DNA from: Lolium rigidum
Lineage: Eukaryota; Streptophyta; Magnoliopsida; Poales; Poaceae
Reading direction: 5' to 3'
NCBI RefSeq assembly: GCF_022539505.1
Contig: NC_061514.1
Location: 342,968,644-343,032,643, forward strand
Length of the DNA: 64,000 nucleotides
Part shown: in pieces, positions 24,568 to 61,965 of the stretch
Layout of the letters: each line of letters starts with the position of its first letter
Numbering within the stretch: the stretch's first letter is position 1
Notes under the pieces: generated by a model
The model's input: the letters and a program-made list of their open reading frames with translations, nothing else
Database searches by the model: none
What the model was told of the DNA's origin: nothing
Position numbers and translations under genes: made by a program

Positions 24568-25092
24568 CGGTCTATGTTCTTTGTTGTAATGCCCTAAGTA
24601 AATATCATATTAGTCATCATGATATGTATGTGCATTGTTATGCCCTCTCTATTTGTCAATTTCCCAACTGTAATTTGTTCACCCAGCATGCTATTTCTTA
24701 TTGGAGAGACACCACTAGTGAACTGTGGACCCCGGTCCATTCTTTTACATATGAATACAATCTACTGCAATCATTGTTCTCTGTTGTTCTTTGTAAACAA
24801 ACATCATTCTCCACACCATACGTTTAATCCTTTGTTTACAGCTAGCCGGTGAGATTGACAACCTCACTGTTAAGTTGGGGCAAAGTATTTTGATTGTGTT
24901 GTGCAGGTTCCACGTTGGCGCCGGAATCCCTGGTGTTGCACCGCACTACACTCCTTCACCAACAACCTTCACGTGGCCTTCATCTCCTACTGGTTCGATA
25001 AACCTTGGTTTCTTACTGAGGGAAACTTGCTGTTGTACGCATCACACCTTCCACTTGGGGTTCCCAACGAACGTGTGCTTCATGCGTCATCA
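24568..25092 (+). repeat. F2 3' LTR, right part
   Basis: Resumes after TSD GATAG (24563-24567) and ends GCGTCATCA at 25092, followed by TSD AGTAA. ORFs here are LTR frames. Confidence 0.92.
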
Positions 25093-25097
25093 AGTAA

Positions 25098-25679
25098 CCA
25101 ATATGCTTTGCTCACTAAGATTTTTGTTGAGAGTTTTTTTTTAATAACTCTATGTTCAAGCCAACTGTTTCCTTTAAGATCTATAATAAGCCTACTATTA
25201 TGTCCTTGTCGAAATTTTGTGGCATCCTAGGTATTGAGATGACTGGAACATCGAAAAGGATCAAAGACACTCCTGCTGATTTGTTGGAACTTTACCGAGC
25301 GGTGACGAATGATGATGACCGCAGTTCCCAACGTGGCAAGATAAGGAACATTCAAATCCCAGCTATTAGATACTTTACTTATTACCTTGCTACTAGTATT
25401 CTTGGTAGGTAAAATACTAGTAATATTTCTCACTATCATTTGGCTTTTCTAGCTACTTCACTCAATATAGTACTAAGTACAACCTTGGTGCTCTTATTGC
25501 CCGTCGCTTAGCTTCTAGAGGATCCATCTATGGAGGAATTATTGCTGCACATATTATAGTTGCTTTGGATATTCTTGTTAATCCCAATGATGTATTGTTG
25601 GCACCACAGAGACTTGATCTTTCTGCCATGAAAACCCATCAATTTGTTACTGCTGACTCTTGTGCATGAAGTTTGGTTT
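25098..25679 (+). pseudogene. F3 ATHILA-type ORF, piece 2 of 3
   Basis: Continues piece 1: NQYALLTKIFVESF, then DTPADLLELYRAVTNDDDR and IPAIRYFTYYLATSILGR. A one-base loss in a T-run near 25136 shifts the frame; TAA at 25410-25412 and TGA near 25668 are nonsense changes also present in the tandem copy (46608-47463), so they predate the duplication. F4 element 4a is inserted after 25679. Confidence 0.75.
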
Positions 25680-26840
25680 TGTTGCGGTCAGAAACCCACT
25701 GGCGAGCAGCGACGGGCAACACAGTAGAGCCGGGAACAACTTAGGGCTGCAGCTGGCCCTGGTCCCTCCGAGCGACGGCCCGCAAAGCCTCCGGCACGCA
25801 CGTCCGATGCTGGTGCAAGGGCGTGCCACCTGACCTATACCTGGCCAGGAAGGTGATGGAGATGCCTCGCTTAGTTTCCTGCATGGCATACACGTAAACA
25901 TTAAATACGAGCCTCGATCGGCTCTCAGGTCATCCTGTGAATCAGCTCAAAGAGCCGATCCACCCATGATTCGTACGAGGTGTACGAATATATGGTGGTC
26001 CTGCTTGATCAAGATAAAGCTAAAGCGATCTACGACGATTTAGGGTTTTCACCGCATAATCGGATCATCCTACTCACGATTGGGCCTCGCGGCCACGCAC
26101 GGTGATCGTAAGCCGATCCTAGATAGGGCCTAAAAACCAACACGAGGTTGATCCTCGGAACATCCTGTCTAGGACTAGCAAACGACACCCTACGCGCCGC
26201 CGGATCCTCCAACCCTTTGTAAGGCCTAACTATTGCAGATATTAAACTAATCCTTGAAGAACAAGGAGCAACCGTAACGGATCGGATCTACTAAATAATG
26301 ATCAAGCGGGGTGCCGCCCCTACACCTAAGATAGGTGTAAGGGCGGCTAGATGTATAAGGGTTGCACTACGATAGCATATGATACGAAGAACAATGCTAA
26401 CCCTAACACACCTAAGATAACTACGTTGCTCGCCATCAAAAAGGCTTCAGTACGAGCAACGCATGAACAACGAGATAAACTTATGCTGCCTAGATCGCAA
26501 GATGTGATCTAGGCAGCATGATGCTTACCGGATGAAACCCTCGAGACGAAGGAGTTGGCGATGCGCCGAGATTGATTTGTGTTGAACGTTGGTTGTTGTT
26601 TATTTCATAAACCCTAGATACATATTTATAGTCCGTAGACTTTCTAACGTGGGAATAATCCCAACCGTGCACAAGGCAAACTCTAACTAACCGACACATA
26701 ATCTACTATGTTACAGATACACGGGCAAACTAGCCCAAACTTTACATAACAGGCCGATTCACGTATTTCTTCCATGTATATTCTTCAAGTCCATCTTGAT
26801 CGCGGCCTACCTCTAACTTGGTCAAATTCTGGTGATAACA
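25680..26840 (-). repeat. F4 3' LTR (4a)
   Basis: 1161 bp. On the minus strand TGTTATCACC...CAACA. It contains two strong inverted repeats at 26313-26347 and 26483-26519 (see findings) and a TATAAATAT box around 26620-26630 on the minus strand. Confidence 0.93.
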
Positions 26841-27128
26841 CATGCCCCCCTGGTTTTGGAATTGATAATTCCAAAATCACTCTGCTTTTTCTTCGTCGGG
26901 TCATGTCGTGGCAGAGCAGAACCGTTGCAGTATCCTTCATCATGATGCCTTGTCTTCTCAACTTCTCTGCAAGATTTGATAGCCTTAGCACCACTCCCTC
27001 GGAAACTACAATGGCATTAAATCTCCACTAGGCTCCTTCTTTATTTAAATGTGCCGATCGATTAGCCCTCTTCATCCCCTTCCTCCGTTCTAGCTATCGG
27101 CACCGAAAAAACCTCTTTCTCTGTAGCC

Positions 27129-27572
27129 ATGTCTTCTTCTTCCTTCGTCTCCTCCGGCCTCTCTTTCCAATCTTCTTCCTCGAGTGAGCCGATGTCAGAG
27201 TCCGAGTGGGATCTCGACTTCTCGTCAGACGGCGACATGCCCCTGACTGATGGGGAGGACGACCTCCAGTTCCTCATTGAAGGGGAACTGGAGAGCGAGA
27301 GCGAGGATGACCTCCACTCATGGAGGAACCCTACTTCCTCCGATAAAGAGGAAAACGAGGAGGAAGAGGAAGAAGAGGAGGAAGACGACTCCTCCTCCTC
27401 CACCGGGTACCCGCCGGCGAAACGCTTCCGTGCTTGGGCGGATAGTGAAGATGACGATGATGACGAAAAGGAAGAAGCTCCGGCCGAAGGCTGGGGCAGC
27501 GGTGATGAGGAGTTCTCCGGAAGCCGCGCCGGCAGCGGCTACGACGCCGACGACGAGGGCAGCGAGGATTAG
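27129..27572 (+). CDS. Acidic low-complexity protein, antisense ORF of F4
   Basis: 147 residues: Ser-rich N-terminus, then very acidic Glu/Asp tracts (about residues 78-92 and 113-118) with the basic island PPAKRFRAW between them, and a Gly/Ser/Asp-rich end. TATTTAAAT at 27042-27050 could be its TATA box, 80 bases upstream. The homologous ORF in 4b (60048-60521) has the same order of segments with insertions and deletions in the repeats. It is encoded antisense to gag and lies upstream of the PMD gene on the same strand. Function unknown; acidic tracts suggest a chromatin- or RNP-binding role, as inference only. Confidence 0.6.
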   Translation: MSSSSFVSSGLSFQSSSSSEPMSESEWDLDFSSDGDMPLTDGEDDLQFLIEGELESESEDDLHSWRNPTSSDKEENEEEEEEEEEDDSSSSTGYPPAKRFRAWADSEDDDDDEKEEAPAEGWGSGDEEFSGSRAGSGYDADDEGSED

Positions 27573-27927
27573 TAGGATAGGATCAGTAGTATGCGAGCAA
27601 TCGGCTCTTCTTTTGTTCCCCTTTACTTTGAGCAATCGGCTCTTCATTGTAAAAAACCCTCCTTTCGTTAATGAAGAAGTATTTCCCGTCAACTTTTTGC
27701 CGGCAGTCAAAGTCAAACGATCCCCCAAAAGAGCCGATGGCATCGCATCGGTCTCTACCATAAAAGCACGAGTAAGTTCGACCTAGCCGCCCTTCCAAAC
27801 GGTAACCTGCGACCTCCGTCTGAGAAAGCAAACTCAGATCCCCAAATCACCGCCTGAGCAGTTCCACCTCACGACCACCTGCATCCCAGATCTCGACCGC
27901 GCCGCCTGCAACTCTGCAGCGCATCCA

Positions 27928-30900
27928 ATGGCGGAATCATCCAACATCAATGCCATGGTCTCCGACCTGAAGGTAATCCTTAATCTCCTCTGGCCATTCG
28001 AATCGATGTTAGGATCAATAGCAAACACCTGAATTAATGTCTTGTTCCGTTATTGATTTTAGGTTTCAGACATCCTACTGCCACATCCTTCTCTCGCGAA
28101 TTCTATGTGCCTCGGTCCTCGTTCTTCCGAGAGTCCCGCCCTCTTGATCTCATGCGAAGCCAACAGAATCCCCTTCGTGAATCAGAACTTAGATCTGACT
28201 TCCTGGGCCGACTGCCTGCGAGCCTGGCCTAATCCTCCTGAGGGTTGGGTGGCATGGTATACTAGAGTATCCAAAACCCATTATGCCACCTGGGAAGCCA
28301 TAGGGATAGCCGATGCCTTGTCATTATCATTGTCTCCTCTTGAGAAGAATGAAAATATTCTGAAAACCATCGGCTACTTCTGGTCTGACGCACTGAACTG
28401 CTTCATGTTCGGCCATGGCCCCATGACACAAACTCTGCTGGATGTGGCCATGATCACGAGCCTAGACATTGCATCCCCAAGCCCTTCGCATTCAAACCGC
28501 CGAAAGTCCCTTTCACCCCGTCTTCTAAAAAAGAGTGTACCAGATCGGGGTGCCTACCTCAATCGTTATATGAAGACCAAGGGCCCTGTGACAGAGAGAG
28601 AACACACAGCCTTCCTGAATTTCTGGTTGGAGCATTTCATATTTTGTGGCCCATCACTTGCCCCTACCAAGAATTACCTTTCCCTGGCCTATGAACTTGC
28701 CAAAGGCACCCAACTTGGCCTAGGCAAACTGTTTCTTGGAGAGGTCTATCGATCTCTTCAACTGATGTCTGTCAAACTGTTCTCTCAAAAGACAGTTAAA
28801 ACTGGCGGCCCTTGGTGGTTTATTCAGTTATGGGCGCAGCTATATTTTCAGAACCAGATCCCAGACTTCCCACCTTTGACCACCTGCACCTTTCCGGATG
28901 TTAATGGAAAGGATATCCGATGCACCAGCTACGGCCAAGCTTTGTATGGTCTCCCAGGCAGCAGGCTGATCCCTAAGGAAGCAGCAGGGTGGTTCAGGAT
29001 TTTCTTCCAAGGTTTGGACAACCCCCTGTTCTTTCCTTATACTGAATCGGCGAACTTTGAAAACCCAGTCTCCTTTCGATTGGATGACTTTGCCGATGAC
29101 GCTAGCACCCAGCATCTGTATTCTATCATGATCCGTCCTTGCTTCCTCCCTGTTGGCATGAGTACCTCGAACCGGATCATCAAGCCTGGTTATGAGTGTT
29201 ACCAACCAGTAGTGGTAGCCCGTCAGCTTGGCCTCGGGCAGGTGCCTCCACACTTCTTCTTGCATCACCTGACAGCAAGCAGAGCTGAACTGCCTGACAT
29301 CCTTACTGGCCAAAGGTGTTATACCTTTTTTGATGCTTTGGCCATTCCAATTCCCCACGACCTCCGTTTCTCCTTCACCACCGATGGTTTCGAGACTTGG
29401 TGGTCCATGTGGAAGACCCATGTCTTCAGAAGGGCTCTAGGACCGCTGCTGAGACAACTTGATGCCGAGTATGACATCCCTGCAGACCAGGTACCATCAC
29501 TTAAATTTCTTGTAACAGCTTACGGTGATTGTCCGTCACCTGACTCCATCTCCTGGCAGCAACACGATGGCCCGGCTCCCACGCAAGCCGATGGCTCCCC
29601 CTTCGTATTCCTTCCTCCAGCCCCAGTGGTTCTCTTCTCGCCGAGCTCGCCACCCCGAAGAAAGTCATAATGCAGAGTCGGCCGATTTCACCGAAATCGG
29701 CTCCCAAGAGTAAAGCATCTTCGGGGCCAGTTGCCCCCCGAGCCTCGACTCAGGCGAGGACAGCAGTGAGGAAGGTGGCTGCCAGGAAGACTCTGAAGCG
29801 CAAAGCTCTTGCCCAAGAAAGCTTGCATGTAAGTTGGTTCATGTCCTGTCCACATTTATCCACTTTTCTAGTCTTCTGCAACACGCCCGTATTCTTTTCC
29901 ACATCCTTCCACCGAAGAAACCTCCAGTGGGGCCGCAGAATCCAGCCAGAGGAACTCGAGCTCGGGCAACTCCGAGAGGTCCACCACCCAGAGCCAGACG
30001 GCTTCGCCAGCGCCAGCTTCGCCAGCGCCGGCTTCTAAGAAAAGGTCGATTCCTGACCCCCCTGCTCCCCAAGCCCCGACCAAATCGGGGTCGCGCATGA
30101 AGCGTCGATGAGTCAAAAGGGCTCGTAAAAACCCACGAGCTTCTCCATCAAGCCAGGAGGTCTCAAATGTAATTATCTCCCCAGTCACACTTCATGTTAA
30201 CCCATTGTCATTTGGATCGGCTAACCATTTCCTCCTGCAGACCGAAGAAACCTCTAGCGGAGACGTCGAGGAGGTACTGATGCCATCCGCCACCCTAGAC
30301 CGAGCCACCTCGACGATCGCGGCTGACCAAGTAGCTGACCCAGCCAAGTCCACAGAAAAGCCGATTATCACTACATCGGCAGCTCCTCCTACCTTGGGAG
30401 AGGTATACCCCCTTTCCTTGGCTCTATCACTTTCTTCGTTGTATGCTAAACATTTTTTGTTTGCCCTGTCAGGGTTGTGATCTCTCGAGTTTGCTGACGT
30501 TCGATCCAGAATCCATCGAACCAACTACTTCCAAGGCAAGTGGAGAGCCGTGTCCTAGCGCGGTCCGTGGTCCACTCCAGCGTCTCAAGGATCTGCTCTC
30601 TTCATCAATTGAGACCCTGATTGAAAAATCCGAGGAAGTAAGAGGCATCCTCGAAGATATCCAGCCCCATCTCCCTATGATACTGCAAGTGAAGCTCTGG
30701 CCAGCCGTTACTCTACCGGTCTTCAAGTCAAGGGTGCAATCGGCTAGACAAAGGATTACTCTTCGCCACACCCAGCTTCCATTGAGAGCCGATATTACAG
30801 AAAAGTGTCAACGGCTCAACGAGAAGAAGGCTGCTTTGGACGCCAAGACGGACACTTCTGCCCATCGCGCCGAACTCGAGACCCTGCGCAAGGAACTGGA

Positions 30901-31141
30901 GAGCCTTGAAGAGAGGGTCAGGGTGACCAAGCAGCTTATCCAAGACAAGGAAGCCCTTATCTCCCGTTCTCAAGAGGAAGCGAAAGGCCTCACAGCCGAT
31001 CTGAAGACCGATCTGGCTGAAATTCGTACCCTGAGCAGTCAGCTGGTGACGGGTAAAGGTGAGGACGACAAGGCTGAGATCGCCGAGGTGGACCGCATCC
31101 GTGTTGACGCCCTTCTTGCCCTCGGCGCGTTTCTTCAGTAG
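27928..31141 (+). pseudogene. Six-exon PMD/coiled-coil gene, antisense within F4 (copy 4a)
   Basis: Exons by GT/AG signals and alignment with 4b: 27928-27972, 28063-29490, 29560-29828, 29905-30168, 30241-30402, 30473-31141. Exon 2 (476 codons) holds a plant mobile domain (aminotransferase-like PMD), recognised by FMFGHGPM followed by TLLDVAMIT and many spaced Trp. Exons 3-5 encode a Ser/Pro/Lys-rich linker; exon 6 ends in a coiled coil (about 30790-31140). All introns are phase 0 and 69-90 bp. Damage: a compensated shift in exon 2 (about 28485-28545), one base lost in exon 3 (29654 area), acceptor AG lost before exon 4, and a TGA in exon 4 (30109-30111). PMD proteins occur in host silencing factors of the MAIL1/MAIN type and in plant transposons; the role here is unknown. 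Confidence 0.75.
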
Positions 31142-31686
31142 GGCCTTCAGAGACAAATGTTTCGCTGAACTTGATCTTCTAAAGTCGATGACTCTGCTTC
31201 GGCTGTACTTGCTACATTTTTTTTTACTGGCCGATTTTCCACCGGCTCCTAATATTTTATTGCCCATGCGTCTGTCTACCTGATTATGTGCCCCCCGAGC
31301 CGAATCTGTCAGGTTACTGCAGATATCGGCTTTGCGGTTATCGATAGGATTATACCTGAACATCGGCTCTGCAGTCAGGACTAATGCCGATTTCCTTGTA
31401 CCCGCAAGCTGATGTAAACCCATACCCCAGCCTTCCGTCACCCGTTAGCTCGATGCTGAACGCAGGCAAGGATAATACGGGGCGACTGCTGGAACTGGCC
31501 CCTATCTTGATTGTATTGCTCAAAAGAGGCTTACATCTCATTGCGCCAGCCGATGTCTCATCAACGGCTTTCCTTTGTTTGGGGCGCCATACCCTCCAAT
31601 CTCCTTTGTGGTCGACCCTCTTTGTCCAGGGTCCGTCGACCTTTTGCGGCCAGATCAGGCCGCACATTCCTTAGCGCGCATAGGTA
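31142..31686 (-). other. F4 post-gag remnant (4a)
   Basis: Corresponds to 4b sequence around 55150-55290 joined to 56040-56330: on the minus strand, a degenerate end of gag followed by RCKPLLSN-type sequence. The protease-coding part is missing. Several GCCGAT/ATCGGC inverted repeats are present (for example around 31300-31400). Confidence 0.6.
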
Positions 31687-32014
31687 TTACCTTTCAGCTT
31701 CCTCCAAGCCGCGCATTCGCTGAACTCTACGCTTTTGGGAACGGCTGAGTTCATCAGGGCACCACCATGGCCGGTGGTACCTGCCTTCTTTTCTTTCACA
31801 GTCATCTTTTATCCCCTCGAGGTTTTCTTCCGGAGGGGAGTCGGCTTGCTTGTTCTTGGATGGGAGAGGCCCAAACCGTTCAGTAAATACTACGTGGGTG
31901 GGTTCTACGAAGGGAACAGATGAAGTCGGCTTCGAGGATCGCTTGGACCTCGTCATACTTCTTCTTGGGCTCCTCGGTCAAATCCTCGTACGTGACTGGA
32001 GTGCCGTCCGCCAT
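31687..32014 (-). pseudogene. F4 gag remnant (4a)
   Basis: Begins MADGTPVTYEDLTEE at 32014, matching the 4b gag start at 52563, then after ~30 codons jumps to the RFGPLPSKNKQ region that lies some 2.4 kb further on in 4b, and ends in LSRSQKRRVQRMRGLEEAER. The middle of Gag is deleted. Confidence 0.75.
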
Positions 32015-32053
32015 CTCAGACGTAGATGGCGATGTAGTTGATTGTCGAAGATT

Positions 32054-32071
32054 GTCCCACCGGGCGTGCCA
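32054..32071 (-). promoter_or_regulatory. Primer-binding site of F4 (4a)
   Basis: The minus strand reads TGGCACGCCCGGTGGGAC, 5 bases from the LTR end at 32077. Not the tRNA-Asp type; I could not assign the tRNA. Confidence 0.75.
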
Positions 32072-32076
32072 GAATG

Positions 32077-33237
32077 TGTTGCGGTCAGAAATCCACTTGC
32101 GAGCAGCGACGGGCAACACAGTAGAGCCGGGAACAACTTAGGGCTGCGGCTGGCCCTGGTCCCTCCGAGCGACAGCCCGCAAAGCCTATGGCACACACGT
32201 CTGATGCTGGTGCAAGGGTGTGCCACCTGACCTATACCTGGCCAGGAAGGTGATGGAGATGCCTCGCTTAGTTTCCTGCATGGCATACACGTAAACATTA
32301 AATACGAGCCTCGATCGGCTCTCGAGTCATCTCGTGAATCGGCTCAAAGAGCCGATCCACCCATGATTCATACGAGGTGTACGAATATATGGTGGTCCTG
32401 CTTGATCAAGATAAAGCTAAAGCGATCTACGACGATTTAGGGTTTTCACCGCATAATCGGATCATCCTACTCATGATTGGGCCTCGCGGCCACGCACGGT
32501 GATCGTAAGCCGATCCTAGATAGGGCCTAAAAACCAACACGAGGTTGATCCTCGGAACATCCTGTCTAGGACTAGCAAACGACACCCTACGCGCCGCTGG
32601 ATCCTCCAACCCTTTGTAAGGCCTAACTATTGCAGATATTAAACTAATCCTTGAAGAACAAGGAGCAACCGTAACGGATCGGATCTACTAAATAATGATC
32701 AAGCGGGGTGCCGCCCCTACACCTAAGATAGGTGTAAGGGCGGCTAGATGTATAAGGGTTGCACTACGATAGCATATGATACGAAGAACAATGCTAACCC
32801 TAACACACCTAAGATAACTACGTTGCTCGCCATCAAAAAGGTTTCAGTACGAGCAACGCATGAACAACGAGATAAACTTATGCTGCCTAGATCGCAAGAT
32901 GCGATCTAGGCAGCATGATGCTTACCGGATGAAACCCTCGAGACGAAGGAGTTGGCGATGCGCCGAGATTGATTTGTGTTGAACGTTGGTTGTTGTTTAT
33001 TTCATAAACCCTAGATACATATTTATAGTCCGTAGACTTTCTAACGTGGGAATAATCCCAACCGTGCACGAGGCAAACTCTAACTAACCGACACATAATC
33101 TACTATGTTACAGATACACGGGCAAACTAGCCCAAACTTTACATAACAGGCCGATTCACGTATTTCTTCCATGTATATTCTTCAAGTCCATCTTGATCGC
33201 GGCCTACCTCTAACTTGGTCAAATTCTGGTGATAACA
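32077..33237 (-). repeat. F4 5' LTR (4a)
   Basis: 1161 bp, partner of 25680-26840, with the same two inverted repeats at 32710-32744 and 32880-32916. Confidence 0.93.
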
Positions 33238-46077: not shown

Positions 46078-46602
46078 CGGTCTATGTTCTTTGTCGTAAT
46101 GCCCTAAGTAAATATCATATTAGTCATCATGATATGTATGTGCATTGTTATGCCCTCTCTATTTGTCAATTGCCCAACTGTAATTTGTTCACCCAGCATG
46201 CTATTTCTTATTGGAGAGACACCACTAGTGAACTATGGACCCCGGTCCATTCTTTTACATCTGAATACAATCTACTGCAATCATTGTTCTCTGTTGTTCT
46301 TTGTAAACAAACATCATTCTCCACACCATACGTTTAATCCTTTGCTTACAGCAAGCCGGTGAGATTGACAACCTCACTGTTAAGTTGGGGCAAAGTATTT
46401 TGATTGTGTTGTGCAGGTTCCACGTTGGCGCCGGAATCCCTGGTGTTGCGCCGCACTACACTCCTTCACCAACAACCTTCACGTGGCCTTCATCTCCTAC
46501 TGGTTCGATAAACCTTGGTTTCTTACTGAGGGAAACTTGCTGTTGTACGCATCACACCTTCCACTTGGGGTTCCCAACGAACGTGTGCTTCACGCGTCAT
46601 CA
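46078..46602 (+). repeat. F2 3' LTR, right part (copy 2)
   Basis: Equivalent to 24568-25092; ends GCGTCATCA followed by TSD AGTAA (46603-46607). Confidence 0.92.
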
Positions 46603-46607
46603 AGTAA

Positions 46608-47463
46608 CCAATATGCTTTGCTCACTAAGATTTTTGTTGAGAGTTTTTCTTTTAATAAATCTATGTTCAAGCCAACTGTTTCCTTTAAGATCTATAATAA
46701 GCCTACTACTATGTCCTTGTCAAAATTTTGTGGCATCCTAGGTATTGAGATGACTGGAACATCGAAAAGGATCAAAGACACTCCTGCTGATTTGTTGGAA
46801 CTTTACCGAGCGGTGACGAATGATGATGACCGCAGTTCCCAACGTAGCAAGATAAGGAACATTCAAATCCCAGCTATTAGATACTTTACTTATTACCTTG
46901 CTACTAGTATTCTTGGTAGGTAAAATACTAGTAATATTTCTCACTATCATTTGGCTTTTCTAGCTACTTCACTCAATATAGTACTAAGTACAACCTTGGT
47001 GCTCTTATTGCCCATCGCTTAGCTTCTAGAGGATCCATCTATGGAGGAATTATTGCTGCACATATTATAGTTGCTTTGGATATTCTTGTTAATCCCAATG
47101 ATGTATTGTTGGCACCACAGAGACTTGATCTTTCTGCCATGAAAACCCATCAATTTGTTACTGCTGACTCTTGTGCATGAAGTTTGGTTTATAGAATGTT
47201 GTTTACTGATGGAGATGAAAGAGAATTTCCCCTACCACAACCTAGTTTGTTTAGTATTTGCAGGATTCCGTGGTCGCGCTCCAAGGAGGAGTTGGACGAA
47301 CATATGTGCTTGCTTGGATTTTATGAGCAACACCTGGAGGAGGCGGCCGGCGATGATTACGTCGTGCATTACACCGGGGCATCCTCGAGCTCATACCGGG
47401 AGGAAGGTGCCTCTTCATCATATTATGGAGGTGCAACTTCTTGGGCTCCTCGGGATTGAAATC
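46608..47463 (+). pseudogene. F3 ATHILA-type ORF, copy 2 (not interrupted by F4)
   Basis: Runs from the F2 TSD through ESFSFNKSMFKPTVSF to TSWAPRD and a stop at 47457-47459. Keeps the frame in the T-run that is broken in copy 1 (25136). Shares with copy 1 the TAA at 46921-46923, a frameshift near 46980 and the TGA near 47179. The N-terminal part is not in this copy because the duplication begins inside F2. Confidence 0.75.
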
Positions 47464-51342: not shown

Positions 51343-52501
51343 TGTTATCACCAGAATTTGACCAGATCAGAGGTGGGCCGTGATTAAGATGGGCTTGAAG
51401 AATACACACGGAAAATATACGTGAATCGGCCTTGTACAAGAAGTTTGGGCTAGTTTGCCCGTGTATCTGTAAATATAGTAGGATACGTGTCGGTTAGGTA
51501 GAATTTGGCTCGTACACGGTTGGGATTATTCCCACGTTAGAAAGTCTACGGACTATAAATATGTATCTAGGGTTATTGAGAAAAACAACAATCACGTTTA
51601 TCACAAACCAATCTAGGCGCATCGCCAACCCCTTGTTTCGAGGGTTTCTTCCGGGTAAGCATCATGCTGCCTAGATCGCATCTTGCGATCTAGGCAGTAT
51701 ACGTTTATTCGTTGTTCATGCATTGCTCGTGCTGAAGCCTTGTTGATGGCGAGCAACGTAGTTACCATAGATGTGTTAGGGTTAGCATTGTTCTACCGTG
51801 TCATATGCTTTTGTCCATGCAACCCTTAGACGTCTAGCCGCCTTTACACCTATCTTAGGTGTAAGGGCGGCACCTTGCTTAATCATTATTTAGTAGATCC
51901 GATCCGTTATGATTGTTCCTTGTTCTTCAAGGATTAGTTTAATATCTACATAGTTAGGCCTTGCAAACGGGTTGAAGGATCCAGTAGCACGTAGGGTGTA
52001 GTTTGCTAACCCTAGACAAGATGTTCCGGGGATCAACTTCATGTTGGTTTTTAGGCCTTGTCTAGGGTTGGTTTATTATCACCGTACGTGGCTGCCGAGC
52101 TCAATCACGCGTAGGATGTTCCGATTATGTGGTGAAAACCCTAAATCGTCGTAGGTCGTTTTAGCTTTATTTTGATCAAGCAGGACCACCATGTGATCGT
52201 AGACCTCATACGAATCATGGGTGGATCGGCTCCTTGAGCCGATTCACGGGAAAACCTGAGAGCCGATCGAGGCTCGTATTTAATGTTTTCGTGTATGCCA
52301 TGCAGGAAACTAAGCGAAGCAAATCCATCACCTTCCTGACCAGGTATAGGTCAGGTGGCACGCCCTTGCACCAGCATCGGACGTGCGTGCCGAGGCTTTG
52401 CGGGCCGTCGCTCGAGGGACCGGGGCCAGCCACAGCTCTGAGTTGTTCCCGGCTCTACGTGTTGCCAGCCGTTGCTCGCCGGTGGGTTTCGGACGCCAAC
52501 A
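51343..52501 (+). repeat. F4 5' LTR (4b)
   Basis: TGTTATCACC to CGCCAACA. TATA box TATAAATA at 51554-51561. Hairpins at 51664-51700 and 51837-51871 lie downstream of the TATA box, so within the transcribed leader. Confidence 0.94.
51554..51561 (+). promoter_or_regulatory. TATA box of F4 LTR
   Basis: GGACTATAAATATGTATC; the same word is in all four F4 LTRs (3' LTR of 4b at 61018-61025). Confidence 0.65.
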
Positions 52502-52506
52502 CATTC

Positions 52507-52524
52507 TGGCACGCCCGGTGGGAC
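52507..52524 (+). promoter_or_regulatory. Primer-binding site of F4 (4b)
   Basis: TGGCACGCCCGGTGGGAC, 5 bases after the LTR end. The tRNA is not assigned. Confidence 0.78.
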
Positions 52525-52562
52525 CGTCTTCGACATCAACTGCATCGCCATCTACGTCTGAG

Positions 52563-55500
52563 ATGGCGGAAGGTACTCCAGTCACGTACGAGGATCTGAC
52601 TGAGGAGCTCAAGAAGAAGTATGACGAGGTCAAAGCTATCCTCGAAGCCGACCTCATCGGCTCCTTCTAGAGGACCCGCTCACACGGCATCAGGTGGAAA
52701 GGGTTCTCACCTGAAGGCGCGCTCGATGGAGTGGACCTGTCTACCCCTTCAGAAGAACGCACCAGGTCTCTGCGTCAGGAGATCAATTTCATGGTAGCTC
52801 ATTCGCTACACCGCCATTCTGAGAGCCTGGTGAACATTTTGGAGCGTGTCGCCCTTCGGGTGATCCAGGAAATCGTGAGGCATCAGTACTCTCTGTCAGG
52901 ACCTGCTCTAGGGACTCACCAAGGAGAGCTACCACTCCAGTCCCGACCACCGCTGCCGTTCGCGCTGGCAGCACCAGAAGTGCCGAGTTCACCGGCATTC
53001 ATCGTCTACAAGATCGGTGGTGATCCTAGTGATTACCAATTCTTGTATGAGGCACCCAAGGAGATCCCGCACGGATACGCGTGCACATACGTGCCAGACT
53101 GCAGTAACTGGGAACTCACGAACCAGACTGCAACAGCAGGGACTTCTGGGACAGCAGGAGGAGCTTCTGGCTCAGATCTTGAGAAGCAGACGTGGCTAGC
53201 TAAGTATGCCACTCCGACGAACCTCCAAAGCTCAACTCCTGCAGCTGGCTCAGATCGTGAGAAGCAGACGTGGCTAGCTAAGTATGCCACCCCAACAAAC
53301 CTCCAAAGCTCAACTCCTGCAGCTAGCTCAGAGCTTGAGAAGCAAGCGTGGCTGGCTAAGTATGCTACTCCAGCGAATCTTCAGAGCACGACTCCTGCAG
53401 CCAGCACCGCGGATCAGATCAGTACAATCTTGAGAGACCAGTTCGGCATGGTACCGAAAAGGAGGGCAATCGGCTATTTCAAGCCGTACCCCAACGAGTA
53501 CGATTTGATCCCATTACCACCCAAATATCGGCTCCCTGAATTCTCCAAGTTTAGCGGGTCAGATGGCTCCAGCTCAATCGAGCATGTGAGCCGATATTTG
53601 GCGTAGCTGGGCATGATCTCAGCATCAGATGAACTACGCGTGAGGTTCTTCGCACAGTCCCTCACAGGATCGGCTTTCGGGTGGTACACATCGCTGCCAC
53701 CAGACTCAATCCGGACTTGGAAGCAGTTGGAAGAACAGTTCCACATGCAGCATCACTCGGAGGCTTCCGAGGCCGGCATTGCCGATCTAGCACAAGTACG
53801 ACGAAGCGCGGAGAAACGAGTGTCGAATACATCCGGCGCTTCGGGACCATTAGGAACCGATGCTATTCGGCTCGTTTGACCGAAAAAGAAGCGAGCCGAG
53901 TTGGCGGTGGTGGGTCTCGCATCGCCGATCAAGGATATGGCTTCCCAAGCGGACTACCCTTCACCGGCGCATATGGTTCGGAAGCCGTCATTGTATGAAC
54001 AGCGCCACCCAGAGTTGTACCAGGACAAATTCAAGCGCGCAGTAGTCCTGGTTGAGGCAGATGAAGATGAAGGCTCTGCGGGAGATCAAGAGGTAGCAGT
54101 TGCTGAATGGACTCGGGGGGCAAGCCCCGTGTCCTGCAAATGGGTTAAGCCACAAGGTCCTCCAAGAGGGTTTGACTTCGACGTGACCAAAGCTGAGAAA
54201 ATTTTCGACCTCTTACTCAAGGAGAAGCAACTAAAGTTACCCGAAGGCCTCAAAATCCCCACGGCACAGGAGCTGAACGGAAAGCCATACTGCAAGTGGC
54301 ATAACACGTTCACCCATACCACCAACGACTGCAGGGTGTGGCATCAGCAGATCCAAATGGCGATAGAACAAGGGCGTCTAATTTTCAACCAGTACGCCAT
54401 GAAAGTCGACACACACCCCTTCCCCGCCGTTAACATGGTGGAGTACGCTTACCCCGAGGGGTGCCAGCCAGGTTTCTCGTTCAGCATCAACATGGTCGAG
54501 TCTGGGCACCAGTCTGGTAAGGACAGAGGCGAGGGCAGCCGCTCTCGTAGCAAGGACAAAGAGGAAGCCGTTCCACGCGATCGGCTCCGACACGATGGCA
54601 AGCGCTACATCACAGAGGGAGAAGTGAAGAATGTGCGATATCAACGACCTCTCTCTGATCATCTCCTCAACAAGTATGTGAGTCAGTACGACCATCGCCA
54701 GCGATACAATGACGACGACGAAGGAGATCGTCTGGCTAGCAGAGACGCCAGGAGACATCGTCGGCATGATCACGACGAGGAGAGATATGAGCGCCATACC
54801 AAGGAAAGGTCAAGAGAGCAAGACGACGTGGACAAGCACTGGGACTGTCCCTTCTTCAAACACTGCTGGGATTCAGGGATGAGCCGATTGCCTACAATCG
54901 GCAACTGCCCAGAATGTAGACAGAAGAAGAAGGGTGCAGGAGACGTGTTAGTGTTCAAACGTCTAGGGCCTCTCCCATCTCGGAACAAGCAAACTGAGTC
55001 CTCTCGGGTAGAAGATCTCGAGGAGTTAGAAGATGACGATGAAGAAGAAGAAGATAAGTACCACCGGCCAAGGTGGTGCCCTGATGGACTCAGCCGTTCC
55101 CAGAAGCGTAGGGTTCAGCGACTACGTGGCTTGGAGGAAGCCGAAAGGTTATACCTGCAAACAATAAGGAAGGCGCGGCCTGATCTGGCCGCGAAAATTC
55201 AGCGAACTCTGGACGAAGAGGGTCGGCCACAAAGGAAAGAGTGGCGCCCCAAACAAAGGAAAGCCGATGATGAGACATCGGCTGGCACAAACATGGTGTT
55301 CATCCTTCCAGCGGAGTTTTGTGCTCCAGGATTAGACGAAGCACCTGTGGCACAACTTGACTGTGGCCCACGGCCAGTTATTTTTGAGAAGCCACGAGAA
55401 AGAAGCTACAGACACCTGAAGGCCCTGTACTTACGAGGTTATATCAATGGGCAGCCTGTCAACAAGATGCTGGTGGACACCGGAGCGGCAGTCAACATCA

Positions 55501-55943
55501 TGCCATACTCCATGCTACGTCGGTTGGGACGCTCTAGCTCGGATCTGATCAAGACCAACGTTACACTGAGCGATTTCAACGGCCAAGCATCTGAAGCACA
55601 AGGTGTTCTGAACGTGGATCTGACCGTAGGGAGGAAAACCATCCCTACAACATTCTTCATCGTCGACAGCAAGAGCACCTATGCTGTCCTGCTAGGGAGA
55701 GATTGGATCCACACCAACTGTTGCATCCCATCCACGATGCACCAATGTTTAATACAGTGGGATGGAGATGAAGTAGAGGTCATCCACGCAGATGACTCAG
55801 CCGAGATTTCAACGGCTGGCATGAACGTTTGGGAGGCGGCAGGCGAAGAGCCACTCTCAGGCATCACTTTGGACGACTGCGAGTACATCGACGTGACAAA
55901 AAACGGGGTGAGGCTGGTCTTATCCACCGGCCTGACCGTGTAA
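52563..55943 (+). pseudogene. F4 gag-protease
   Basis: Start ATG 52563 (MAEGTPVTYEDLTEELKKKY). Near 53170-53400 three ~17-residue repeats containing EKQ(T/A)WLAKYATP. Capsid-like region around 53610-53760 (FFAQSLTGSAFGWYTSLP). Zinc-binding-like CKWHNTFTHTTNDC (54291-54332) and a second Cys set (CPFFKHC ... CPEC, about 54847-54920), then an RS/RE-rich charged stretch. Protease motif DTGAAVNIMPYS with the catalytic Asp codon at 55476, and LLGRDWIH near 55690. Two in-frame TAGs (52668 and 53604) and a shift near 53790-53900 disrupt Gag; 53901-55943 is open for 680 codons. Gag would build the particle and the protease would cleave it. Confidence 0.85.
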
Positions 55944-56498
55944 CAAGAGCAAAGGCTATGGACACACGTGGCGAGGCCGATCCCTGCGATCGGCCCCAAA
56001 AAATAAAAAGTGATGATCTTGTCTCAAGCATGTCACGTAGTTATAGTAAAGCACGAACAAGGTGTAAACCTCTTTTGAGCAATGCAGTCAAAATGGGGGC
56101 CGATTCCGGCAATCGGCCCATATTATCCTCGCCATACGTTTTGCCTGTGTTCAGTGTCGATCTAACAGGTGACGGGAAGCGAAGGTATGGGCTTACATCA
56201 GCTGATGAGCTAGAAGAAGCCTGCCCATGTTCAGGTATAAGTTCTTTGGACAATTGCAGAGCCGATATCTGCAGTAACCTGACAGATTCGGCTCGGGGGG
56301 CACCTAATCAGATGAACATGTGTGCGATACATGGGCAGTAAAATGTGGGGGCCAATAGAAAAATCGGCCAGTAAAAAAAACAGTATACAAGTACAGCCGA
56401 TGCAAAGACATCGACTTCAGAATAAAAAGCCGATGCACAGCCATCGACTCTAGAGGTACGAGTTCAGCAAAACATTTATCAGTTTACACAAAGAGGCT
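55944..56498 (+). other. F4 intergenic segment with GCCGAT hairpins
   Basis: Between the gag-protease stop and the tail of the antisense gene. Perfect inverted repeats GGCCGAT/ATCGGCC (55976-55996) and GGCCGATT/AATCGGCC (56098-56118); near-perfect ones around 56350-56450. No gene. Its equivalent in 4a (31142-31500) is partly deleted. Confidence 0.6.
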
Positions 56499-59400
56499 CT
56501 ACTGAAGAAACGCGTTGAGGGCATGAAGGGCGTCAGCACGGATGCGATCTACCTCGGCGATCTCAGCCTCGTTGTCCTCGTCTTTGCCCGTCACCAACTG
56601 ACTGCTCAGGGCACGAATTTCAGCCAGATCGGTCTTTAGATCGGCTGTGAGGCCCTTTGCTTCCTCTTGAGAGCGGGCAATAAGGGCTTCCTTGTCTTGG
56701 ATAAGCTGCTTGGTCACCCTGACCCTCTCTTCAAGGTTCTCCAGTTCCTTACGCAGGGTCTCGAGTTCGGCACTATTGGCAGAAGTGTCAGTCTTGGCGT
56801 CTAAGGCAGCCTTTTTCTCGTTGAGCCGTTGACATTTGTCTGCAATATCGGCTCTCAACGGGAGCTGGGCGTGGCGAAGGTTAATTCTTTGACGAGCCGA
56901 CTGCACCCTTGTCCTGAAGACTGACAGAGTCACAGCTGGCCAAAGCTTCACCTACAGTGTCACCGAGAGATGGGGCTGGATGTCTTCGAGGATGCCCTTG
57001 ACTTCCTCGGGGTTTTCAACCAGGATCTCAACTGAGGAGGAGAGCAAAGCCTTGAGACGCTGGAGTGGACCATGGACCGTGCTAGGACTTGGCTCTTCAC
57101 CTGCCTTGGAAGTAGCTGGTTCGATGGATTCTGGATCGAACGTCAGCAAGCTTGAAAGATCACAACCCTGGCAGACGAACAAGAACATCATTAGTATACA
57201 GCAAAGAAAAGGGTAGAGCCTGGAGAGAGGAGTGTACCTCTCCCAAAGTGGGAGGAACAGCCGATGTTGTGACGATCGGCTTTTCCGTGGGCTTGGCTAG
57301 GTTGGCCACTTGGTCAGCCACGCTCGTTGAGGTTGCTAGGTCTAGCGTGGCGGATGGCATCAGTACCTCTTCAACGTCCCCACTAGAGGTCTCATTAGTC
57401 TGCAAAGGAAATGGTGAGCCGATCCGAGTAGCAATGGGACGGCATGAAATATGAACCAGTAAAGTAATTACATTTGAAACCTCCTGGCTTGGCGAGGAAA
57501 CTCGGGGGTCTTTGCGAGCCCTTTTGACGCATCGACGCTTCACGCGTGACCCTGTTTTGATCGGAGCTTGGGGAGCAGCAGGCTCGGGAGTCGACCTTTT
57601 CTTAGAAGCCGACGCTGGCGAGTCCGTCTGGCTCTGTGTGGTGGATCTCTCGGAGTTGCCCGAGCTCGAGTCCCTTTGGCTGGACTTTGCTTCCCCGCTG
57701 GAGTTCTCTTCGGTGGAAGTCTGTAAAAAGAAGTACAAGCATGTTGCAAAAGATTGGGAAGGCAGATAAATGTGGCCAAGGCACAAGTCAGCTTACGTGC
57801 AAGCTTTCTTGGGTAGGAGCTTTGCGCTTCAGGGTCTTTCTGGCAGCTACTTTCCTCACTGCCTTCCTCGCCTGGATTGAGGCTCGGGGGGCAACTGGCC
57901 CCGGGGATGCTTTACTCTTGGGAGCCGATTTCGGTGAAATCGGCTGGCTCTGCATTATGACCTTCTTCAGGGGTGGCGAGCTCCGGCAGAAGAGAAACAC
58001 CGGGGCTGGTGGAAGGAATTCGAAGGGGGAGCCATCGGCTTGCGTGGGCTCTGGGCCATCTTGTTGCTGCCAGGAGATAGAGCCAGGTTATAGACAGTCA
58101 TCATGAGCCGTGGCAAGGAATTTATAAGTAATGGTACCTGGTCTGCAGGGGCGTCATATTCGGCATCAAGTTGCTTCAGCAATGGTCCTAGAGCTCTTCT
58201 GAAGGCATGGGTCTTCCACATGGACCACCAAGTCTCGAAACCATCGGTAGTGGTGGTGAAACGGAGGTTGTGGGGAATTGGAATGGCCAGAGCGTCAAAA
58301 AAGGTATAGCGCCTTTGGCCAGTAAGGATGTCAGGCAGTTCAGCTCTGCTTGCTGTCAGGTGGTGGAGAAAGAAGTGTGGGGGCACTTGCCCGAGACCAA
58401 GCTGCCGGGCTACTACCACCGGTTGGTAAGACTCATAACCAGGCTTGATGATCTGGTTTGAGGTACTTATGCCAACTGGGAGAAAGCAAGGACGGATCAT
58501 GATAGAGTACAAGTGTCGGGTGCTAGCGTCATCGGCAAAGTTGTCCAACCGGAAGGAGACTGGGTTCTCAAAGTTCTCCGATTCAGTATAAGGAAAGAAC
58601 AGGGGGTTGTCTAAGCCCTGGAAGAAGATCTTGAACCACCCTGCTGCTTCCTTAGGGATCAGCCTGCTGCCTGGGAGGCTATACAGAGCTTGGCCATAGC
58701 TAGTGCATCGGATCTCCTTCCCATTAGCATCTGGGAAGGTGCAGGTGGCCAAAGGAGGGAAGTCTGGGATCTGGTTCTGAAAGTACAGCTGAGCCCATAA
58801 CTGAATAAACCACCAGGGGCCTCCTGTTTTAACTGTCTTTTGGGAGAACAGTTTGACAGACATCAGTTGAAGAGATCGATAGACCTCTCCAAGGAACAAT
58901 TTTCCAAGGCAAAGTTGAGTGCCTTTGGCGAGTTCATAGGCCAGGGAAAGGTAATTCTTGGTTGGGGCGAGTGAAGGACCACAGAATATGAAGTGCTCCA
59001 ACCAGAAGTTCAAGAAGGCTGTGTGTTCTCTCTCTGTCACAGGGCCTTTGGTTTTCATGTAACGTCTGAGGTAGGCACCCCAGCTTGTACACTCTGTTTT
59101 GGAGGAAAGGGTGAAAGGGACCTTTGGCAGCTTGAAGGCAGAGGGGCTTGAGGATGCAATGTCTAGGCCTGTGATCATGGCCACGTCCAGCAGGGTTGGT
59201 GTCATGGGGCCATGGCCGAACATGAAGCAGTTCAGTGCATCAGACCAAAAGTAGCCGATGGTTTTCAGAATGTTGTCATTCTTTTCAAGAGGAGACAATG
59301 ACAATGACAGAGCATCAGCTATCCCTATAGTTTCCCAAGTGGCATAATGGGTTTTAGACACTCTATTATACCATGCCACCCAACCCTCTGGAGGATTAGG

Positions 59401-59700
59401 CCAGGCTCGCAGGCAGTCGGCCCAGGAAGTCAGATCTAAATTTTGGTTCACAAAGGGGATTCTGTTGGCCTCGCATGAGATTAAGTGAGCGGGACTCTCG
59501 GAAGAACGGGGGCCTAGACACATAGAATTTGCGAGAGAAGGATGCGGCAGCAGGATGTCTGAAACCTAAAATTAATAACGGAATAGGACATTAACTCAGG
59601 TGTTTGCTGTTAATCCAAGCATTGATTCGAATGGCGAAAGGCGGTTAAGGATTACCTTCAGACCGGAGACCATGGCGTTGGCGTTGGATGATTCCGCCAT
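56499..59700 (-). pseudogene. Six-exon PMD/coiled-coil gene, antisense within F4 (copy 4b)
   Basis: Exons on the minus strand: 59700-59656, 59565-58138, 58066-57797, 57720-57472, 57399-57238, 57167-56499; each intron is GT...AG, 70-90 bp, phase 0. Exon lengths 45, 1428, 270, 249, 162 and 669 are all multiples of three, about 940 codons in total. Exon 1 begins MAESSNANAMVSGLK. Exon 2 is the plant mobile domain (FMFGHGPM, TLLDVAMITGLDI). Exons 3-4 are Lys/Arg/Ser-rich and may be nuclear-targeting; exon 6 ends in a coiled coil (ELETLRKELENLEERVRVTK). One TAG at 56954-56952 truncates the coiled coil; otherwise the spliced frame is open. Because the gene is antisense to the element RNA, its introns survive retrotransposition. 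Confidence 0.8.
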
Positions 59701-60047
59701 TGGATGTGCTGTGGAGTTGGGACGGCGCGGTCGAGATCTGAGATGCGTGTGGCCAAGAGTTGGAGCTGCTCGGGCGGCGATTTGGGGATCTGAGTTTGCT
59801 TTCTCAGACGGAGGTCGCAGGTTACCGTTTGGAGGGGCAACTGGGTTGGCCTTACTCGTGTTTTATGGTAGAGGCCGATGCGATGCCATCGGCTCTTTTG
59901 GGGTTATTTGACTTTGACTATCGGCAAAAATTGATTGGGAACACTTCTTCATTAATAAAAGGGGATTTTTACAATGAAGAGCCGATCGCTCAAGAAAGGA
60001 GGAACAAAAGAAGAGCCGATTGCTCAGGAACTACTAATCCTACACTA

Positions 60048-60521
60048 CTAATCCTCGCTGGCCTCGTCGTCGGCATCATAGCTGCCGTCGGCGCTGCTTC
60101 CGGAGAGTTCCTCGTCGCTGCTGCCCCAACCCTCGGCCGGAGCTTCTTCCTCCTCGTCATCATCATCGTCTTCGCTGTCCGCCCAAGCGCGGAAGCGCTT
60201 CGCCGACGGATACCTAGTGGAGGAGGAGTCATCCTCCTCTTCCTCCTGTTCCTCCTCTTCTTCCTCTTCTTCTTCTTCCTCCGCCTTGTCAGAGGAGGTG
60301 GGGTGCGCCCAGGAGTGGAGGTCGTCCTCGCTCTCGCTCTCCAGCTCCCCTTCGATGAGGAACTGGAGGTCGTCCTCCCCATCGGTCAGGGGCAGGTCAC
60401 CATCGGACCCGACGAGGGCCTTGGGTGGGCCATCTGGCACGAAGTCGAAGTCCCACTCTTGCTCACTCGAGGAAGAAGATTGGAAAGAGAGGCCTGATGA
60501 GACGGAGGAGGAGGAAGACAT
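60048..60521 (-). CDS. Acidic low-complexity protein, antisense ORF of F4 (4b)
   Basis: 157 residues from the ATG at 60521, chosen because it matches the 4a start; an in-frame ATG 32 codons further up is not conserved. Ser-rich start, Glu tract (about 60240-60290), basic island AKRFRAW, Asp tract and Gly/Ser/Asp-rich end. Same strand as, and upstream of, the PMD gene. Function unknown. Confidence 0.6.
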   Translation of the reverse strand: MSSSSSVSSGLSFQSSSSSEQEWDFDFVPDGPPKALVGSDGDLPLTDGEDDLQFLIEGELESESEDDLHSWAHPTSSDKAEEEEEEEEEEEQEEEEDDSSSTRYPSAKRFRAWADSEDDDDDEEEEAPAEGWGSSDEELSGSSADGSYDADDEASED

Positions 60522-60789
60522 TGCTACAGGGAAAGAGGGTTTTTTGGTGCCGATGGCTAGAACAGAGCAAGGGGGTGAAGAGGCAAATTGTTCGGCACAG
60601 TTAAATAAGGGGAGCATAGTGGAAATTTAATGCCATTACAGTTTCCGAGGAAGTGATGCTAAAGCTATCAAATCTTGCAGAGAAGTTGAGAAGGCAAGGC
60701 ATCATGATGAAGAATACTGCGACGGTTCTGCTCTGCCACGACATGACCCGACGAAGAAAAAGCAGAGTGATTTTGGAATTATCAATTCC

Positions 60790-60806
60790 AAAACCAGGGG
60801 GGCATG
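60790..60806 (+). promoter_or_regulatory. Polypurine tract of F4 (4b)
   Basis: AAAACCAGGGGGGCATG immediately precedes the 3' LTR at 60807. The equivalent in 4a is the complement of 26841-26857. Confidence 0.7.
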
Positions 60807-61965
60807 TGTTATCACCAGAATTTGACCAGATCAGAGGTGGGCCGTGATTAAGATGGGCTTGAAGAATATACACGGAAAATTTACGTGAATCGGCCTTGTA
60901 CAAGAAGTTTGGGCTAGTTTGCCCGTGTATCTGTAAATATAGTAGGATACGTGTCGGTTAGGTAGAATTTGCCTCGTACACGGTTGGGATTATTCCCACG
61001 TTAGAAAGTCTACGGACTATAAATATGTATCTAGGGTTATTGAGAAAAACAACAATCACGTTCATCACAAACCAATCTAGGCGCATCGCCAACCCCTTGT
61101 TTCGAGGGTTTCTTCCGGGTAAGCATCATGCTGCCTAGATCGCATCTTGCGATCTAGGCAGTATACGTTTATTCGTTGTTCTTGCGTTGCTCGTGCTGAA
61201 GCCTTGTTGATGGCGAGCAACGTAGTTACCATAGATGTGTTAGGGTTAGCATTGTTCTACCGTGTCATATGCTTTTGTCCATGCAACCCTTAGACGTCTA
61301 GCCGCCTTTACACCTATCTTAGGTGTAAGGGCGGCACCTTGCTTGATCATTATTTAGTAGATCCGATCCGTTATGATTGTTCCTTGTTCTTCAAGGATTA
61401 GTTTAATATCTACATAGTTAGGCCTTGCAAACGGGTTGAAGGATCCAGTAGCACGTAGGGTGTAGTTTGCTAACCCTAGACAAGATGTTCCGGGGATCAA
61501 CTTCATGTTGGTTTTTAGGCCTTGTCTAGGGTTGGTTTATTATCACCGTACGTGGCTGCCAGGCTCAATCACGCGTAGGATGTTCCGATTATGTGGTGAA
61601 AACCCTAAATCATCGTAGGTCGTTTTAGCTTTATTTTGATCAAGCAGGACCACCATGTGATCGTAGACCTCATACGAATCATGGGTGGATCAGCTCCTTG
61701 AGCCGATTCACGGGAAAACCTGAGATCCGATCGAGGCTCGTATTTAAAGTTTACATGTATGCCATGCAGGAAACTAAGCGAAGCAAATCCATCACCTTCC
61801 TGACCAGGTATAGGTCAGGTGGCACGCCCTTGCACCAGCATCGGACGTGCGTGCCCAGGCTTTGCGGGCCGTCGCTCGAGGGACCAGGGCCAGCCGCAGC
61901 TCTGAGTTGTTCCCGGCTCTACGTGTAGCCAGCCGTTGCTCGCCGGTGGGTTTCGGACGCCAACA
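60807..61965 (+). repeat. F4 3' LTR (4b)
   Basis: Partner of 51343-52501; hairpins at 61128-61164 and 61301-61335; followed by TSD CTGAC. Confidence 0.94.

Follow-up and report, generated by a model that had tools for sequence, protein, structure and literature searches.

How a gene with five introns is kept inside a long terminal repeat (LTR) retrotransposon, and what its product would do there, is the question raised by a 64,000-nucleotide stretch of the Lolium rigidum genome (contig NC_061514.1, positions 342,968,644 to 343,032,643; hereafter the window, to which all coordinates refer). Two elements in this window, 4b (51343-61965) and the oppositely oriented 4a (25680-33237), each carry a copy of a six-exon gene for a plant mobile domain (PMD) protein, placed antisense to the element itself. 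The gene is best explained as an accessory gene carried by a family of LTR retrotransposons that appears to be non-autonomous. It is real and maintained, and its main interest lies in the pairing of a probable DNA-reading protein with candidate target sites, copies of the word GCCGAT, rather than in its fusion of domains.

The 4b gene lies on the minus strand, antisense to the LTR-gag-protease direction, and has exons of 45, 1428, 270, 249, 162 and 669 nt, every length divisible by three, separated by introns of 90, 71, 76, 72 and 70 nt that all have GT..AG ends and all fall in phase 0. Exon 1 (59656-59700) supplies the start codon and exon 2 (58138-59565) the PMD (PF10536), for which a VANC21-like fold is predicted; exons 3 (57797-58066) and 4 (57472-57720) form a basic linker with isoelectric points (pI) of 10.8 and 10.4, exon 5 (57238-57399) is acidic, and exon 6 (56499-57167) is a probable coiled coil. 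Because the gene is antisense, its five introns are not introns on the sense strand and are protected in the sense-RNA step. The 4a copy (27928-31141, plus strand) has exons 1, 2, 5 and 6 of the same lengths and introns of 90, 69, 76, 72 and 70 nt. A preliminary description of this DNA had proposed just such an antisense gene in an LTR retrotransposon, and its exon and intron lengths, splice ends and phases are borne out for 4b, as are the lengths it compared between the copies. Lesions were missing from that description: in 4b an in-frame TAG (56952-56954) removes most of exon 6, and the 4a copy is broken, with an exon 2 whose length is preserved only through a compensated frameshifted stretch, an exon 3 of 269 nt in which the frame is lost, an intron 3 that has lost its acceptor AG, and a stop within exon 4. 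The full protein is encoded by neither window copy.

Despite these lesions, the two copies have diverged as coding sequences do. Exon differences between 4a and 4b number 62, 51 and 200 at the first, second and third antisense codon positions (summed over exons), with no consistent pattern of this kind in the introns, and the ratio of non-synonymous to synonymous divergence (dN/dS) is 0.158 over the 935 codons of all exons and 0.08 in exon 2. A search of the same genome with the exon 2 protein gave 5755 first-look candidates, of which 89, all at least 92% identical, were scored; the exon 2 match is free of stops in 69 of them. The 30 best matches of the 89, 4b included, were then compared with 1.5 kb flanks, exon 6 being incomplete in all. 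GT..AG ends are kept at introns 1 to 5 in 29, 28, 28, 29 and 27 copies, respectively, and lengths divisible by three at exons 1 to 5 in 30, 30, 27, 29 and 25, with no lesion over the covered part in 15 of the 30. Over 435 pairs, dN/dS for exons 1 to 6 is 0.26, 0.075, 0.19, 0.34, 0.37 and 0.30, the exon 2 value being biased downward by the choice of best exon 2 matches and exons 3 to 6 not having been selected on, while the introns differ by 0.18-0.31 between copies (403 pairs for intron 5). The antisense gene is thus under purifying selection in all exons, and its intron ends are conserved across copies. The preliminary description had named a dN/dS near 1, or intron boundaries not shared by other copies, as grounds for abandoning its proposal; the ratios found lie between 0.075 and 0.37, and 141 of 150 introns retain GT..AG. 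At an assumed rate of 1.3e-8, LTR divergence dates 4a and 4b to about 0.65 million years (My) each, and five copies with two LTRs to 0.33-0.51 My. With insertions as young as about 0.65 My, the low dN/dS means that selection acted in active lineages before insertion.

The elements themselves have the paired LTRs and target-site duplications (TSDs) of LTR retrotransposons. In 4b the LTRs (51343-52501 and 60807-61965, plus strand) are 1159 nt long with 19 differences, are directly preceded and followed by the TSD CTGAC, and hold four and two GCCGAT sites, respectively; in 4a they are 1161 nt long with 20 differences, and the TSD is AAACC. The sequence directly after the 5' LTR is the same in both elements and is called a primer-binding site from its position only; the G-rich tract before the 3' LTR of 4b is likewise named from position. 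On the sense strand, 4b carries a gag open reading frame (ORF) piece (52671-53606), named by its position before the protease ORF and matching no Pfam family above cut-off, and a gag-protease ORF (53880-55943) with an aspartic protease (PF13975); no reverse transcriptase was matched among the scanned ORFs of 4b. A second antisense ORF, of 157 aa and pI 4.05, lies upstream of the PMD gene (60048-60521, minus strand) and has a 147-aa counterpart in 4a (27129-27572, plus strand). Twelve long copies all have the PMD gene in antisense orientation relative to LTR and gag, one of them having an LTR without a gag match, and the acidic ORF was detected in seven of the 12; the presence of the PMD in all 12 is not evidence in itself, because all copies were found through it. 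Long copies that retain gag-protease have no pol-sized gap before the PMD gene, and for this reason the family appears to be non-autonomous, with the order LTR, gag, protease, antisense PMD gene, antisense acidic ORF, LTR.

Some further observations concern these elements. The gag ORF piece of 4b includes three 78-bp tandem repeats (53167-53401), whose length, being divisible by three, keeps them in frame. Although most of gag is missing from element 4a, it keeps its own LTRs, its TSD and both antisense genes, and several other copies are similarly short, which suggests that such forms are a second-order non-autonomous form. Two stretches of the window, 24900-25680 and 46384-46923, are near-alike by eye and encode the same protein, and an LTR of 4a starts directly after the first.

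Relatives of the gene occur beyond this genome. The closest protein matches of the window, among those listed, are Lolium multiflorum entries. The 120 matches listed include 23 metagenome-type relatives, 33-95% identical to 4b in exon 2, which are apparently genomic, unspliced ORFs. All but one, which ends short, reach the exon 2 boundary, and of these 22 a valine, whose GTN codon is donor-like, stands exactly at the first intron position in 18 and at most two residues away in four. The sequence after the boundary is mostly unlike the exon 3 protein, except that three relatives read through a short in-frame intron and then resume exon 3 sequence; rice models, presumably spliced, and a Panicum hallii model carry different sequence onward from the same place. 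The donor position of the PMD exon thus appears, from these protein comparisons, to be conserved in relatives including those of rice and Panicum. A search of IMG/VR confirmed no relative.

Read through the stop in exon 6, the spliced frame of 4b would give a protein of about 940 residues. Its PMD matches PF10536 at 88.2 bits in 4b and 84.9 bits in 4a (cut-off 34.9), and the coiled coil of exon 6 is made probable by sub-cut-off Pfam matches and the names of relatives; in the window, DUF1409 gives a sub-cut-off match in 4a only (E 0.086). The predicted PMD fold matches the VANC21-DNA structure 9lnj, with no PDB sequence match to solved VANC21 at E up to 10 by profile or single-sequence search. 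The PDB matches that Foldseek listed, with E no better than 3.8 and TM no higher than 0.14, amount to noise, and a viral structure library gave no significant match. The domain of other plant retrotransposon antisense ORFs, TRP28 (PF04195), was matched by none of 23 proteins (exon 2 and 22 relatives) with the threshold set at E 10, and by none of the ORFs scanned from the window with the threshold at E 1, a set that misses exon 3 of 4b in frame. A link to TRP28 through a shared C-terminus was likewise set aside, no PF04195 protein being present among the 83 and 108 matches listed when the C-terminus was searched twice, with a reach limited to close relatives.

What such a protein might read is suggested by the word GCCGAT, which had been found, and VANC named as a possible model, before the fold result was obtained. 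Element 4b contains 42 sites (3.95 per kb) against 6.9 expected from trinucleotides, and 4a contains 33, whereas the remaining 45.8 kb of the window has a single one. The 12 long copies together contain 416 sites in 98.5 kb, against four in 21.4 kb outside. The number alone is not the argument, because other words, CGCCGCC and ACGTATC, are strongly over-represented elsewhere in the window. One-mismatch neighbours of GCCGAT are near expectation (at best 11 against 5.9), sites are found in LTR, gag and antisense exons alike, and because several reading frames are used within coding parts, the word is a nucleotide feature. The other PMD loci of the genome, L001-L008, which give 271-306-bit matches in open frames of 459-1530 aa, are unlike the 4a/4b family and may be host PMD genes or other transposable elements (TEs); each has zero or one GCCGAT in 4 kb and no clear word of its own.

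Some of the sites in 4b form inverted pairs. Eight such pairs within 20 bp, their sites 13-15 bp apart, compare with 1.55 at random (maximum 7 of 5000); seven are convergent, one, in the LTR, is divergent, and there are no close pairs with both sites in the same orientation. Pairs lie inside exon 3 (57924-57944) and exon 5 (57260-57280), and five sites occupy the gap that separates the PMD start from the acidic ORF upstream (59874-60020, minus strand), where the nearest inverted pair adjoins a TATA-like stretch and a promoter may be situated. In neighbour steps of at most 30 bp in the 12 long copies, convergent pairs are spaced at 12-15 bp in 55 of 61 cases and divergent pairs at 13 bp in 17 of 19, the divergent ones probably being one LTR pair repeated. 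Genome-wide, the pattern AGCCGATN{6,9}ATCGGCT, counted over all families, occurs 20,903 times, against four for a reversed control.

GCCGAT sites are dispersed through the element and are kept above background at the DNA level. When LTR sites are counted in each LTR, 4a shares 22 of 31 sites of 4b, compared with 45.7% for other hexamers (p 0.006); with the LTRs counted once, the sites kept are nine of nine in exons, four of four in the LTR, one of one in introns and one of two in gag. Retention of exon sites across the 30 copies is 0.86 against 0.55 (eight of nine sites, the ninth being reached by too few copies), and third-codon-position diversity is 0.098 inside sites (n=17) against 0.242 (n=876; p 5e-4). 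For the LTR, gag-protease and non-coding parts of the 12 long copies, sites are retained in 169 of 210 cases, counted where the best alignment covers them and with three gagA sites outside that coverage, against 0.42-0.57 for other hexamers.

These results are consistent with a system like that of VANC within an LTR retrotransposon, in which the antisense PMD protein would bind candidate GCCGAT sites across its own element, a reading that may well be right and could as easily prove wrong. The antisense gene would be transcribed from an internal promoter and spliced, and a protein of about 940 residues would be made and enter the nucleus, where the PMD would read GCCGAT. The coiled coil may join two PMDs, giving a probable dimer on inverted pairs; such a joining would match the inverted arrangement of the word. 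Binding in trans across LTRs, gag and the gene's own promoter could then counter silencing, or tune the transcription of all copies on both strands, as VANC acts on VANDAL elements. Some results make the figures on pairing and site conservation less strong, and the even odds given to this reading already take them into account. The inverted pairs of 4a, three against 1.37 at random (maximum 6), are not above chance; non-coding 4b sites are kept in 4a in only six of 13 cases against a background of 0.43, so the conservation signal between these two copies is carried by exons and LTR; and the 75 inverted pairs of the 12 long copies, against 17.9 (maximum 29 of 300), come from homologous copies and are not independent counts. 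A wider proposal is offered tentatively: PMDs would share the VANC fold and bind DNA sequence-specifically as a family. An antisense, intron-protected PMD gene and element-wide GCCGAT sites, silent codon positions included, would together give LTR retrotransposons of grasses a trans-acting anti-silencing system, and the host proteins MAIN and MAIL1 would be its counterparts, either domesticated or opposing, and would themselves read DNA directly.

It is possible, if rather unlikely, that GCCGAT is not the site of the PMD at all, its pairs being hairpins by which the genomic RNA is packaged or dimerises, or else being recognised by gag or by some host factor, with the PMD acting otherwise in the nucleus. 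Convergent pairs can indeed fold into stems of 6 bp or more, the two hexamers being separated by 6-9 nt; among 42 distinct sequences, complementarity extends to the adjoining outer base in 33 and to the adjoining inner base in 25. The sites are also found in LTR and gag as well as in antisense exons. However, most sites are not closely paired: of the 41 steps between neighbouring sites in 4b, eight are inverted pairs within 20 bp, and the single sites of exon 2 are retained by 0.97-1.0 of the 29 other copies. A DNA-binding-like fold is predicted here for the PMD protein alone, in modelling that covered neither gag nor the acidic ORF.

A different role for the protein, which we regard as improbable, is that of a decoy for the host MAIN/MAIL1-PP7L silencing pathway, acting through protein contact rather than by reading DNA. 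The PMD is common to the antisense protein and MAIN/MAIL1, MAIN and MAIL1 interact mutually and with PP7L (PMC8616336, PMC7156037), and TE-encoded PMDs have already been proposed as counter-silencing factors (PMC8616336). Such a decoy would leave the dispersed, conserved GCCGAT sites unexplained, and the Gypsy PMDs of clades A1 and A2 are reported to be separate from the host PMD-C (PMC5418596), which counts against a decoy if the antisense PMD belongs with them. That the antisense transcript is itself the functional product, regulating through double-stranded RNA with its coding capacity incidental, is one option raised for antisense ORFs in PMC7264820, and is very hard to reconcile with the dN/dS values (0.075-0.37), the codon-position pattern of the antisense frame and the conservation of the splice ends, which strongly disfavour it. 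Recent capture of a host gene by one element, now decaying, would suit the broken state of 4a and 4b but is scarcely credible given 89 scored places at 92% identity or more (of 5755 candidates), 69 of them stop-free in the exon 2 match, and relatives in rice and Panicum.

The preferred reading, a VANC-like system, has several precedents in part. The fused protein and the general idea of counter-silencing are already known or proposed. The fusion of PMD, linker and coiled coil, put forward as new in the preliminary description, is ruled out as a novelty by the many rice and ryegrass entries with PF10536 and PF07197 (PMD and DUF1409). PMD-A1 and PMD-A2 are exclusively Gypsy-encoded clades (PMC5418596), a PMD is present in 57% of Ogre elements (PMC6317226), the PMD is the most frequent non-canonical domain, and DUF1409 occurs in Oryza Gypsy consensuses (PMC9289625), and TEs may produce PMDs to counter silencing (PMC8616336); further background is given in PMC6419827 and PMC6123737. 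The literature matches listed include no antisense PMD gene with conserved introns, no GCCGAT sites in retroelements and no link between the PMD and VANC folds, which is weak evidence that the VANC-like fold of the PMD, the scattered GCCGAT sites and the retention of antisense introns have gone undescribed.

The PMD-A proteins of Ty3/gypsy elements, including those of Oryza with PMD and DUF1409, have the same domains as the antisense gene, and some of the rice entries are named 'retroelement' or 'Ty3-gypsy subclass'. Rice was compared by proteins; the antisense arrangement, conserved introns and GCCGAT sites are known here from the ryegrass genome only. The antisense ORFs of Grande (gene23), RIRE2 and Retand, reviewed in PMC7264820, where their function is described as unknown, occupy the same place between gag/pol and the 3' LTR (PMC7264820, PMC11963269), and TRP28 ORFs are found antisense in 97% of Retand clusters (PMC11963269). 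That of Grande has its own promoter and a nuclear protein (PMC7264820), both only presumed for the antisense PMD gene. These ORFs carry TRP28, where the gene of 4a and 4b carries a PMD instead, and the term 'intron' is absent from PMC7264820, with none in the covered parts of PMC11963269. The function of PMDs is described as unknown as well (PMC8616336), and a simple binding assay, to which the VANC21-like fold and the candidate word lead, addresses both questions. MAIN and MAIL1 have the PMD domain in common with the antisense protein. To our knowledge, neither is fused to a coiled coil. The host proteins belong to the PMD-C clade (PMC5418596), and if the PMD reads DNA directly, this would give a reason why a fraction of MAIN/MAIL1-dependent genes share a promoter motif, the 'DOWN' motif (MAIN, MAIL1 and PP7L; PMC7156037).

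The closest likeness is to the VANC proteins of Arabidopsis (VANC21 and VANC6; PMC5735166), which are likewise TE-encoded. The antisense PMD has a predicted fold matching VANC21 on DNA, and its element, like VANC targets, is rich in one short word, here the candidate site GCCGAT. The differences are these: VANC belongs to VANDAL MULE DNA transposons, whereas the PMD gene is an antisense, six-exon gene of an LTR element with gag-protease; the PMD is without detectable sequence similarity to solved VANC21; and the VANC targets are non-coding tandem repeats, in contrast to a word that is dispersed and also lies in coding sequence. The VANC21-like predicted fold and the dispersed candidate word offer a possible, yet unproven, physical basis for the counter-silencing idea, and if the VANC-like reading is true, sequence-specific anti-silencing would extend from DNA transposons to LTR retrotransposons.
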